Assembly: GCA_029210545.1 (NCBI GenBank)
Contig: JARGFV010000061.1
Coordinates: 1-12,569, forward strand
DNA length: 12,569 nucleotides
Reading direction: 5' to 3'
From: a bacterium
Lineage (GTDB): Bacteria > BMS3Abin14
Made by a program: the position numbers and the translations under genes. The notes beneath the pieces are model-generated. The model was not told the origin of the DNA. It ran no database searches and was given only the letters and a program-made list of their open reading frames with translations. Of the stretch, positions 4,455-12,569 are shown piece after piece (the first letter of the stretch is position 1; each line of letters opens with the position of its first letter).

Positions 4455-4670
4455 GGGCAAACCTCATGGTTTGAGTTTTCAGTTCACTGTTTACGGTTTA
4501 TAGTCCAACACTATTTTCTGATGAACCTTAACACCACATTTACAGACAAACGGTAGTTAATATTTTAAATCACGTTATTTACGTGCGATTCTGTAAATAA
4601 ACAGTTTAAAAAATTTGGATGTACTGTTCACCGTGAACTGTTCACCGTGAACTTGGATTTCCCAGCCAGT
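4455..4670 (-). other. AT-rich spacer between pheS and pheT
   Basis: The gap holds no gene. Its edges carry GTGAAC-type iterations (4471-4503 and 4624-4657, the latter two copies of the palindrome GTTCACCGTGAAC). The centre is markedly AT-rich compared with the coding DNA. It contains a 9-bp inverted repeat (4538-4546 with 4590-4598) enclosing a second one, CACGT/ACGTG (4571-4575 with 4581-4585). An internal promoter or a processing site for pheT is possible, but no clear promoter pair was found. Confidence 0.5.
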
Positions 4671-5684
4671 TCAAAACTGCTTCAGAAACCGGATGTCGTT
4701 CTCAAACAGCAGCCTGATGTCGTCGATGCCGAAGTGGAGCATGGCGACCCGCTCCATGCCGATCCCGAAGGCGAAACCGGAATATCTCTCCGAATCGTGC
4801 CCCACAAAGCGGAACACCTCCGGATCGATCATTCCGCTTCCCAGGATCTCGATCCACCCCGTACCGGAGCAGACGCGGCATCCTTTGCCACGGCACATCA
4901 CGCAACCCATGTCCACCTCGGCGCTGGGCTCTGTGAAAGGGAAAAAGCTGGGCCTGAACCGAACGGGTACGTCCCCGAAGAACTGGTGGATGAACTCCGC
5001 CAGGACCCCCTTGAGGTCGCTGAAGGCGATCCCCTCATCCACCATGAACCCTTCCACCTGGTGGAACATGGGCGAGTGGCTCACGTCGTAGTCATGCCGG
5101 TATACCCTCCCTGGGGAAACGATGCGCAGCGGCGGTTTTTCCAGCTCCATGGTCCTGATCTGCACCGGAGAGGTGTGGGTTCTCAGGACCGTATCCTCGT
5201 CGATATAAAAGGTGTCCTGCATGTCCCTCGCAGGGTGATCCTTGGGCATGTTGAGGGCCTCGAAGTTGTAGTAATCCTTCTCCACCTCCGGCCCGGTGCG
5301 GACCGAAAACCCCAATCCGCGGAAAATATCCAGGACTTTTCCCATCACCTGCGTCACCGGGTGACGATGGCCCCTGGAATACCGGACACCGGGGAGGGAG
5401 ATGTCGAGAAGCTGGCTTTGCACCGTTCGCTCCCGCTCCCGGATTTTAACGGCCTGCGTCCTGTCAGCCAGGAGATCCTCGATGACCTTTCTGGCCTGGT
5501 TGACCAACTGACCTGCCGCAGGACGCTGGTCCGGCGGCAGGGTGCCGAGGTTCTTGAGGAGGACAGTCAGCACACCCTTTTTCCCGAGAAACCGGACACG
5601 GGCTTCGTCGAGTTCCTTGACGGAATTGGCGCCTGCGAGGGCCTTTTTTGCTTCTTCGACAATCTGAACGACTTGCTGTTTCAT
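4671..5684 (-). CDS. pheS: Phenylalanine--tRNA ligase alpha subunit
   Basis: The protein has 337 residues from the ATG at 5684, which has GGAG 8 bases upstream; an in-frame GTG at 5714 lies inside the repeat tract and is unlikely. The N-terminal coiled-coil tRNA-binding arm covers about residues 1-90. The class II catalytic core follows: HPVTQVMGKVLDIFRGLGF (108-126), motif 2 with PGRVYRHDYD and HSPMFHQVEG (191-212), and motif 3 GFAFGIGMERVAM (303-315). A Cys-rich loop (C261, C264, C269, C272) before GWIEILGSGM matches the four-cysteine version known in Bacillus-type PheS. It forms the catalytic half of the PheS2PheT2 enzyme. It is controlled by the T-box upstream. A short bulged hairpin surrounds its stop codon. 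Confidence 0.97.
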   Translation of the reverse strand: MKQQVVQIVEEAKKALAGANSVKELDEARVRFLGKKGVLTVLLKNLGTLPPDQRPAAGQLVNQARKVIEDLLADRTQAVKIRERERTVQSQLLDISLPGVRYSRGHRHPVTQVMGKVLDIFRGLGFSVRTGPEVEKDYYNFEALNMPKDHPARDMQDTFYIDEDTVLRTHTSPVQIRTMELEKPPLRIVSPGRVYRHDYDVSHSPMFHQVEGFMVDEGIAFSDLKGVLAEFIHQFFGDVPVRFRPSFFPFTEPSAEVDMGCVMCRGKGCRVCSGTGWIEILGSGMIDPEVFRFVGHDSERYSGFAFGIGMERVAMLHFGIDDIRLLFENDIRFLKQF

Positions 5685-5704
5685 CGGTATCACTCCGCAT
5701 CTGG

Positions 5705-5783
5705 TTCTCTTCACGGTTCACGGTTCACGGTTCACGCTTCACCGTTCACGATTCACTGCTCTCGCTTCACTATTCACTACCTC
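5705..5783. repeat. TTCACGG tandem iterations upstream of pheS
   Basis: Between the T-box terminator and the pheS start lies a run of degenerate 7-base units: TTCACGG three times without interruption, then variants such as TTCACGC, TTCACCG, TTCACGA and TTCACTA. This is the longest example of the word family seen in most gaps of the window. The pheS mRNA carries the complementary GTGAACC words just before its ribosome-binding site. Confidence 0.75.
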
Positions 5784-5784
5784 C

Positions 5785-5817
5785 AAAAACAAAAATTCCG
5801 CCCCATGGGGACGGAAT
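5785..5817 (-). terminator. Intrinsic terminator of the pheS T-box leader
   Basis: On the minus strand ATTCCG-T-CCCC and GGGG-CGGAAT form a stem (5795-5817), followed by TTTTTGTTTTT (5785-5795). The T-box sequence lies immediately 5' of the stem, so antiterminator and terminator pairing are mutually exclusive, as expected for this riboswitch class. Confidence 0.9.
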
Positions 5818-5885
5818 CATTTCCGCGTTACCACCCCGGTTCCCCCGCTTTGCAGGAGCACTCGGTGGGCGACAGTCAGAAACTT

Positions 5886-6026
5886 CGATAAGGCGGTCCC
5901 CGCACCCCGCGTGGAGTGCCCGGATCAAAATCAACGTATCTTGATCCGTGAGGAAAGCGGAAAGGACGCTTTCGCTTTCCGTGGAGCAAAAAATCCCGGC
6001 TGGATTATTTGCGACCCTGTCAGTAG
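5886..6026 (-). repeat. Five-hairpin module inside the T-box leader, related to 12342-12569
   Basis: Read on the minus strand, the segment starts with CTACTGACAGGGTCGC and contains hairpins at 5986-6012, 5952-5980, 5922-5947, 5902-5919 and 5893-5903. The plus-strand unit at 12343-12491 starts CTACTGATAGCCTCGCC and has five hairpins in the same order. Shared sequence includes GCTCYACGGAAAG, the 13-mer TTTCCTCACGGAT and ATCCGGGC. In the second hairpin a G-C pair of one copy is replaced by C-G in the other, keeping the stem. A partial second unit (CTGACTGTCGCCC) follows at about 5866-5879. Confidence 0.7.
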
Positions 6027-6208
6027 TCTCTTTCGCCCGGCCCGGTTAACGGTGAGCCGCCGTCCTGCCCTACCCGCGACATGGCGCCGTTTCAGACAGG
6101 AAGCTCGGGAGTGAAAGGTCGTCTCCTGCCGCCGGGGAAGCTTTCAGCCTCTGGCTCCCCCTCTCTGGCACGGACTTCAGAAAGGACCACTCTCCTTCAT
6201 CGCTTTTG

Positions 6209-6880
6209 CTATTTGGCTATTTTTTCCACATCATCCCCGTGACCGAGGACGAGCAGGATGTCTTTTCCGGAGATCACCGTCGTTGCGAGGGGCGAGATGT
6301 TCATCTCGTAGGTCACCCCGCTCCCCGCGTTTTCAGGGGCGGTCTTGATTGCCAGCACCGATACCCCGTATTTCCCCCGAACGGAAAGTTCGGCCAGGGT
6401 CTTTCCAACCCACGTTTCCGGCGCTACGATCTCGAACACCCCGTGGTCGGCACCGAACTCGACCTGCTCAAGGATGTTGGGTTTTGCGAGGTGGCGGCCC
6501 AGTTGCCGGCCGCTGTCCATCTCCGGGTAGACCACACTGTCCGCCCCGACCTTCTCCAGGAACCTGCCGTGCAGTTTCGTCACGGCCTTGGCCACGACGT
6601 ACTTGACCCCGATTTCCTTCAGGACCATGGTCGCAAGCATGCTCGACTCAAGCATGGAGCCGATGGCCACAACAGCCTGGTCCATTTCGGCCACACCTAC
6701 CGCCTTGAGGGCATCCGCTTCCCTGGCGTCGAGCTGAACAGCCTGGGTGACGAAGGTCTGGGCTTGCTTCACCTTAACCATGTCATTGTCGATGGCGAGG
6801 ACCTGGCACCGGTTTTCAGAGAGGCTCTCGGCAACACTCATCCCGAACCGGCCCAACCCTATGACAGCGACCTGTTTCAT
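6209..6880 (-). CDS. KtrA/TrkA-type potassium uptake regulatory protein (RCK domains)
   Basis: The 223-residue protein consists of an RCK-N Rossmann domain (residues about 1-135; dinucleotide loop VIGLGRFG with G8, G10, G13; acidic D31 at the end of the second strand) and an RCK-C domain (about 140-220, GKTLAELSVRGKYGVSVLAI). Length and layout match single-unit KtrA-like subunits, which gate a membrane potassium transporter in response to ATP/ADP or NAD(H); no KtrB-like partner is in the window. The ATG at 6880 lies 7 bases after the rplT stop codon with little ribosome-binding site, so translation is probably coupled. Placement within a translation-gene operon and directly before the T-box is odd. 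A longer in-frame version overlapping rplT is unlikely. Confidence 0.9.
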   Translation of the reverse strand: MKQVAVIGLGRFGMSVAESLSENRCQVLAIDNDMVKVKQAQTFVTQAVQLDAREADALKAVGVAEMDQAVVAIGSMLESSMLATMVLKEIGVKYVVAKAVTKLHGRFLEKVGADSVVYPEMDSGRQLGRHLAKPNILEQVEFGADHGVFEIVAPETWVGKTLAELSVRGKYGVSVLAIKTAPENAGSGVTYEMNISPLATTVISGKDILLVLGHGDDVEKIAK

Positions 6881-9990: not shown

Positions 9991-10081
9991 GTTTCCGGTT
10001 ATCAGTTCACAGTTCACAGTATTTCAGATCGTCAAACGGTTTTGCGGTCTGACTGTAAACCGTATACCGTGAACTGTAAAC
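9991..10081. repeat. GTGAAC/TTCACAG iterations upstream of thrS
   Basis: Two clusters (9991-10020 and 10051-10081) of degenerate units such as AGTTCACAGTTCACAGT and CTGTAAACCGTATACCGTGA lie between the tRNA-Val terminator and thrS. The thrS promoter was not identified with confidence; a TTGACG on the minus strand at about 10027-10032 lacks a convincing -10 at proper spacing. Confidence 0.6.
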
Positions 10082-10116
10082 AAAAAGGCATCCCAATCTC
10101 AAGTTATCGGGATGCC
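10082..10116 (-). terminator. Intrinsic terminator after tRNA-Val
   Basis: GGCATCCCGAT pairs with ATTGGGATGCC (11 bp with one G-U pair, 8-base loop), followed by TTTTTG on the minus strand. It sits 17 bases beyond the tRNA CCA end and separates the tRNA unit from thrS. Confidence 0.88.
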
Positions 10117-11805: not shown

Positions 11806-12342
11806 TCACTCCTCGAGGGACCTCAAGCCGTCGAGGATGTAGATCGCTCCCGAGGTGACTGTCAGGATCCCGGTGATCACAGCCATCGGACCAAGGGTCC
11901 GAACGAACCAGGGTGATGAAAGCTGCACGGCTGCTGAAAGAACGAGAAGGATGTACAGGAACTGGAAGAAGGTCGTTACCTTTCCCACCGGGTGAGGTCG
12001 GACGGTCAGGTCCCCTTTCATAAGGTAGATGGTCAGGCTTCCCAGAGCGATGATGATATCCCTGCTCAGGACAGTGATCGCCAGCGACAAGGGTATCATC
12101 TCCAGCACCGCCAGGGTCAGGTACGAGGTGGCGACAAGGATCTTGTCAGCCAGAGGATCCAGGAACGTTCCCAGCTTCGTCTGCATCTTCCAGGCTTTCG
12201 CGATAAAACCGTCGAGACCATCTGTGACGGCCGCGGTCACGTAGACCACAATGGCGAAAACGGTTTCGCCCTGGATCACCTTGTAGAGGAACAGGGGGAC
12301 CAGGAGGATCCTGATGATGGTGAGCGCATTAGGAAGGTTCAT
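11806..12342 (-). CDS. pgsA: CDP-alcohol phosphatidyltransferase, likely CDP-diacylglycerol--glycerol-3-phosphate 3-phosphatidyltransferase
   Basis: The 178-residue integral membrane protein begins MNLPNALTIIRILLVPLF, typical of PgsA, and has several hydrophobic helices. The CDP-alcohol phosphotransferase signature is at residues 41-66: D41-G-L-D44-G45, A48-K49, then G58, D62 and D66 (GTFLDPLADK). The Arg usual after the Ala of the motif is Lys here, a conservative change. All four aspartates are present. The enzyme makes phosphatidylglycerol phosphate at the inner membrane, the first committed step to phosphatidylglycerol and cardiolipin. A related CDP-alcohol transferase specificity is possible. 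The start codon abuts the repeat unit upstream, which supplies the only ribosome-binding-like GAGG (about 10 bases before the ATG). Confidence 0.88.
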   Translation of the reverse strand: MNLPNALTIIRILLVPLFLYKVIQGETVFAIVVYVTAAVTDGLDGFIAKAWKMQTKLGTFLDPLADKILVATSYLTLAVLEMIPLSLAITVLSRDIIIALGSLTIYLMKGDLTVRPHPVGKVTTFFQFLYILLVLSAAVQLSSPWFVRTLGPMAVITGILTVTSGAIYILDGLRSLEE

Positions 12343-12419
12343 CTACTGATAGCCTCGCCAAAGTCCGGGCGGGACTTTGGCTCTACGGAAAGGGAAAAGC
12401 GTCGTTTTCCCTTTCCTCA
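12342..12419. repeat. 78-base exact repeat, copy 1 (upstream of pgsA)
   Basis: It is identical to 12492-12569 (offset 150). It contains two perfect hairpins: 12357-12381 (10-bp stem, GCCAAAGTCC) and 12387-12416 (12-bp stem, GGAAAGGGAAAA, loop GCGTCG). It reaches the first base of the pgsA start codon. A diverged relative lies in the pheS T-box leader. Confidence 0.95.
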
Positions 12420-12491
12420 CGGATAGATGACACAGCCCACAGTCATCCATCCGGGCGCCCACCACGGGCGCTGTGACGATCCGGGGGATCG
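12420..12491. repeat. Remaining part of the 150-base unit: three further hairpins
   Basis: This stretch links the two exact copies. It contains hairpins at 12421-12452 (GGAT/ATCC plus GATGAC/GTCATC), 12455-12471 (GCGCCC/GGGCGC) and 12475-12493 (GACGATCC/GGATCGTC); the last one extends into the second copy. No gene is present. The hairpins are packed end to end over the whole unit. Confidence 0.8.
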
Positions 12492-12569
12492 TCTACTGAT
12501 AGCCTCGCCAAAGTCCGGGCGGGACTTTGGCTCTACGGAAAGGGAAAAGCGTCGTTTTCCCTTTCCTCA
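12492..12569. repeat. 78-base exact repeat, copy 2 (at window end)
   Basis: It is identical to 12342-12419 and runs to the last base of the window, so the array may continue. Either the unit is tandemly repeated or the window ends at an unresolved assembly repeat. Confidence 0.95.

Follow-up and report, generated by a model that had tools for sequence, protein, structure and literature searches.

The extra hairpin module in a pheS T-box leader is very probably a copy of a high-copy MITE

The DNA analysed here, a stretch of 12,569 nt (the window; contig JARGFV010000061.1 of assembly GCA_029210545.1, GTDB lineage BMS3Abin14), carries a pheS T-box leader with a series of additional hairpins in its interior. 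The question raised by this locus is whether these hairpins are an ordinary part of the riboswitch, a domain that the riboswitch has adopted, or a mobile element that it tolerates. An earlier note had read the segment as one of two related five-hairpin units in the window and proposed a structured mobile or RNA-level repeat family.

Local alignment of the minus strand of 6026-5886 with the plus strand of 12343-12491 gives a score of 106, above the best of 1000 dinucleotide shuffles (mean 22.8, sd 4.2, maximum 46), and both segments are found by a covariance model whose training set was 16 further copies of the same genome, with both window copies excluded (Table 1), confirming that they share order and sequence. 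The motifs named in the earlier note (CTACTGA-YAG, GCTCYACGGAAAG, TTTCCTCACGGAT and ATCCGGGC) are present in the sequence, as are both versions of the second hairpin, GGAAAGGG/CCCTTTCC and GGAAAGCG/CGCTTTCC. Five hairpins had been assigned to each copy; in the T-box copy four strong ones stand, but the fifth is decayed. The two-copy picture does not hold, since the family occupies about 206 loci in 72% of the genome and a tandem partial copy follows the second one in the window itself.

Table 1. Features of the T-box leader, the repeat copies and related genes (window coordinates unless another contig or locus is named)
Feature	Position	Strand	Evidence
MITE copy in T-box leader, H1-H4 intact, H5 decayed	5877..6021	-	covariance model CM R1, 98.8 bits, E 1e-27; leaders of six relatives without insert
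Second MITE-family copy, first array unit	12348..12493	+	covariance model, 109.7 bits, E 6.5e-31
Third copy, tandem, partial, ended by window edge	12498..12569	+	covariance model, 67.3 bits, E 1.6e-18
Hairpin H1 of T-box copy	5986..6012	-	
Hairpin H2 of T-box copy (GGAAAGCG/CGCTTTCC)	5952..5980	-	pair probability ~1 for most pairs in whole-leader fold
Hairpin H3 of T-box copy	5922..5947	-	fold of leader
Hairpin H4 of T-box copy	5902..5919	-	fold of leader
pheS T-box riboswitch leader with insert	5804..6209	-	Rfam RF00230, full-length match 1-219, 74.8 bits (gathering cut-off 93), E 4.5e-15
pheS, gene under leader control	4671..5714	-	TIGR00468, 354 bits
Native linker helix, 5' arm GGGCGA	6033..6038	-	alignment with six relatives
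Native linker helix, 3' arm TCGCCC	5867..5872	-	alignment with six relatives
Native loop, 5' side, AAGAGACTACT; CTACT like array-module junction (GACTGCTGATAG)	6022..6032	-	
T-box intrinsic terminator, intact	5794..5818	-	fold and terminator scan
RAYT gene of own genome	C150; L032:1429-2118		NF047646, 83.8 bits, cut-off 80

Alignment of full-length copies defines the repeat as a non-coding MITE of 154-155 bp, with five hairpins (H1-H5) and terminal inverted repeats (GATAGGGTCGCAAAAAGTCC and GGACTTTTTGCGAGTCCATC). A search of its own genome with the second window copy returns more than 100 places, and the 20-bp MITE end has 437 matches with at most two mismatches, compared with 0 for a reversed-pattern control. 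In total, 206 loci, including 56 full-length copies, were located in 1.97 Mb; genome-wide, the family occupies roughly 200-300 places. Among the 55 full-length copies with readable flanks, 25 are bordered by exact 6-bp direct repeats of the pattern AANNTT, whereas 2000 trials with shuffled partners average 1.6 and never exceed 7. Placement is mainly intergenic: called ORFs contain 11 of the 128 non-edge loci, as against 68% of random windows (ORF calling being approximate). At many loci, H1-H2 or H3-H4 modules are repeated to form an array. Furthermore, 78 loci lie within about 160 bp of the ends of the fetched stretches (85 contigs, C1-C85 of the genome, a few of them cut at 20 kb), indicating that the assembly is broken by the family. 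The repeat is thus short and non-coding, bears terminal inverted repeats and target duplications, and is dispersed at high copy number, the features by which a MITE is recognised. The proposal of a structured mobile repeat family is borne out by these ends and duplications, by hundreds of copies and by a likely parent IS (see below).

The two window copies have opposite orientation relative to their genes, as originally noted: the T-box copy is on the pheS strand, while the copy at 12348-12493 is antisense to pgsA. At 12335-12365, the array runs directly up to the start codon of pgsA (12342, minus strand) and supplies the only Shine-Dalgarno-like GAGG near it (GGCGAGGCTATCAGTAG-ATG). Seven relatives have other, non-array sequence in front of the same start codon.

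A search for DDE_Tnp_1 led to a candidate for the autonomous partner, a 531-aa ORF at C1:15778-17370 that contains the domains DUF772 and DDE_Tnp_1. Its best NCBIfam match is IS1182 (NF033551; E 1.8e-33), at 116.2 bits compared with a curated family cut-off of 270, and the element is for this reason called IS1182-like only. Its ends, GACGGCATCGCAAAAAGT and GATGGACCCGCAATTAGT, resemble those of the MITE, and its flanks are AATATT and AACCTT. Elements with homologous transposases in two relatives begin GACGGACTCGCAAAAAGT (G009) and GATGGCTTCGCAAAAAGT (G007), the G007 copy being preceded by AAGGTT. Specifically, the three elements share about 17 terminal bases and an AANNTT-type site with the MITE, which makes the IS1182-like element the probable autonomous partner of the family. 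The likeness of the MITE to the C1 element is weaker at the other end and stops after these 17 or so bases, short of the hairpins. At one locus (L257), the autonomous element and a MITE stand side by side with AACCTT alone between them, as if one had hit the target duplication of the other. A lax scan for end pairs flanking ORFs yielded mostly chance pairs, and an IS1595 partner was rejected, with zero PF12762 matches in 12 genomes.

The genome also encodes a RAYT (REP-associated tyrosine transposase), and the repeats are short, palindromic, intergenic and clustered, as would suit a REP/BIME-type repeat moved by that enzyme. We consider this origin very improbable: terminal inverted repeats and 6-bp target duplications point to a DDE transposase, and the RAYT gene lacks REPtron-style flanking, the nearest copy seen lying about 770 bp off with an AACATT duplication of its own. 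A RAYT origin, with copies flanking the gene and free of target duplications, was rejected on these observations.

By covariance-model search, 10 of the 11 genomes examined from the same GTDB family carry the MITE, compared with 0 of 29 from outside that family. Nine of the ten carriers hold from 21 to at least 74 copies each, and one (G002) holds 2; carriers include CP070698 (bin582), JAFGWO01 (Zodletone) and JALHUC01 (PFL40). The complete same-family genome G001 has zero copies, in contrast to the nine copy-rich relatives, and either loss or lack of invasion is possible there. The exact end pattern occurs in no viral contig of IMG/VR, and a phage origin was rejected. A very abundant MITE family is thereby documented in a poorly characterised, uncultured bacterial family; the literature searched holds no earlier description of it.

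Two other kinds of repeat occur in the window. An exact 77-bp direct repeat (1-77 and 203-279) consists of a terminator-like hairpin together with the final 20-odd bases of tRNA-Pro (minus strand, 257-333), and looks like the attachment-site duplication of a small tRNA-targeted insertion. Strings of a degenerate heptamer, TTCACGG / CCGTGAA, lie between genes at 568-599, 1428-1458, 4470-4505, 4620-4654, 5705-5776 and 9998-10083.

The T-box model aligns to the leader over its full length, interrupted by a single large insertion that lies after the IIA/B element and before Stem III; the score is below the RF00230 gathering cut-off, and the pheS leaders of insert-free relatives score 47.8-94.6. 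The insertion had been placed between Stem I and the antiterminator, and this alignment gives its site more exactly. The leader measures 406 nt, compared with 242-261 nt for the pheS T-box leaders of six same-family relatives, and removal of the 145-nt unit leaves 261 nt, the normal size that had been anticipated. Alignment shows that all six of these leaders lack the insert, which contradicts the reading of the segment as an ordinary conserved T-box stem. At its site, most of the six carry a short helix of the GGGC/GCCC type, capped by a small loop. In the window leader, the insert sits between the arms of this linker helix, in the loop, and the specifier, T-box sequence and terminator stay in place. 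The T-box copy has no recognisable AANNTT duplication of its own; on its left it is flanked by ACTACT, which is similar to the sequence where array modules meet (GACTGCTGATAG), and the copy may therefore descend from an array copy. Given the unrecognisable duplication and the decayed H5 end, we infer transposition of this particular copy from the behaviour of its family.

Taken together, the module is very probably a copy of the high-copy MITE that entered the pheS T-box leader by transposition or was brought there within an array. The family would be mobilised by an IS1182-like DDE transposase, probably supplied in trans from an element with matching ends. The copy may have persisted because it landed between IIA/B and Stem III in the loop of the short linker helix; there it would fold as independent hairpins, add no terminator- or promoter-like site, and stay clear of the specifier loop, the tRNA-pairing T-box bulge and the terminator. 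In single-sequence folds of the full leader, H2-H4, Stem II and the terminator are kept; the linker helix is predicted in half of the ensemble without the insert and is not predicted with it, and its presence in the real RNA is uncertain. Scans of the insert found no terminator- or promoter-like site, the only terminator-like site of the leader being that of the T-box itself. Since the insert does not reach the working parts of the T-box, the leader probably still senses Phe-tRNA in the ordinary way, with the insert as a bulky passenger. The suggestion that the insert is tolerated is likewise supported, because every T-box part is intact and the insert is predicted to fold by itself. The leader of an essential aminoacyl-tRNA synthetase gene appears able to accommodate a transposon, large and folded, within a linker loop, and this leader amounts to a natural insertion experiment on T-box architecture. 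Rfam scans of 20 MITE loci from relatives and of 130 kb of the own genome returned tRNAs only, with no further riboswitch insertion.

The compensatory change in the second hairpin, pointed out in the earlier note, is real, but as RNA-level evidence it is weak, such changes being family-wide. Across 105 distinct copies, 97.3% of cells are paired under the model structure, and both-sided stem changes occur in 205 cells, as against 45 for shuffles and no more than 52 for slid controls; the alignment was fitted to the covariance model and so leans towards pairing, and the cells are not independent. One-sided changes in H1-H4 number 46 G-U and 36 A-C. Because plus-strand RNA should favour G-U, these combined counts do not clearly point to selection on the RNA strand; by hairpin, the G-U:A-C ratio is 27:7 in H3 and 3:14 in H2. 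Template-switch repair of quasi-palindromes can yield the same pattern of covariation, and maintenance of palindromes at the DNA level or a mutational origin fits the compensatory changes equally well. The excess of both-sided changes is what would recommend the repeats as independent structured RNA genes or cis-regulators, kept paired by selection on RNA. Such a role is highly unlikely in our judgement, as the repeat in the window has no Rfam match, pairing outside H3 is about equally compatible with either strand, and copies in tandem gene contexts are antisense in 41 cases and sense in 30. The compensatory changes, family-wide and roughly strand-symmetric, do not show RNA function, and covariation across a family of palindromic repeats is by itself no proof of it.

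A narrower possibility is that this one copy was adopted as a working domain of the riboswitch, one that might stabilise the linker helix, time the polymerase or bind a factor, and is now kept by selection on its RNA. Its H1-H4 are still folded despite a diverged sequence, it lies on the leader strand at a position that does not disturb the T-box, and by hand inspection its one-sided stem changes include two G-U, zero A-C and one U-U mismatch. We nevertheless regard adoption as unlikely: family copies outside riboswitches are equally well folded, the 105 copies have no clear RNA-strand bias, and the insert in the leader is known from one genome only. If adoption were true, the MITE would be a traceable riboswitch expansion domain born by transposition into a linker loop.

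The MITE reading, which we prefer, places the locus among known systems. Prokaryotic MITEs derived from IS elements have been reviewed (PMC10969869); in such MITEs the transposase is supplied in trans, as proposed here. Stem-loop transcripts of MITEs are well known. The IS1182-linked MITEs of Methanosarcina (ISMac2; 160 and 169 bp, PMC3852290) and other IS-derived MITEs share with the window MITE its size, terminal inverted repeats, target duplications, intergenic bias and richness in stem-loops. Unlike these relatives, the window MITE has five separate inner hairpins, modules repeated in extensive tandem arrays, and hundreds of copies per genome, with one lying inside a T-box leader; its target duplication is 6 bp (AANNTT) compared with 4 or 0 listed for the ISMac2 MITEs (PMC3852290). 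In the IS1182 family, which the probable parent transposase resembles (116 bits for the C1 protein against the cut-off of 270), IS1272 is reported to target inverted-repeat structures (PMC5678879). The T-box copy similarly lies inside a helix, whereas new IS1272 insertions have no reported target duplications (PMC5678879) and the window family has 6-bp ones.

The leader, like the pheS-type T-box of RF00230, has a complete Stem I, II, IIA/B, Stem III, antiterminator and terminator, and departs from the standard T-box in having about 145 nt derived from a transposon between IIA/B and Stem III. In the literature searched, no MITE is described within a T-box leader, the nearest being the remark that pneumococcal BOX elements have possible T-box-like motifs (PMC10969869). 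By description, the BOX elements of Streptococcus pneumoniae resemble the window MITE in being modular and hairpin-rich, with a variable number of inner modules and clustered insertions. In BOX, it is the repeat that is said to contain possible T-box-like motifs; in the window, a genuine T-box contains the repeat.
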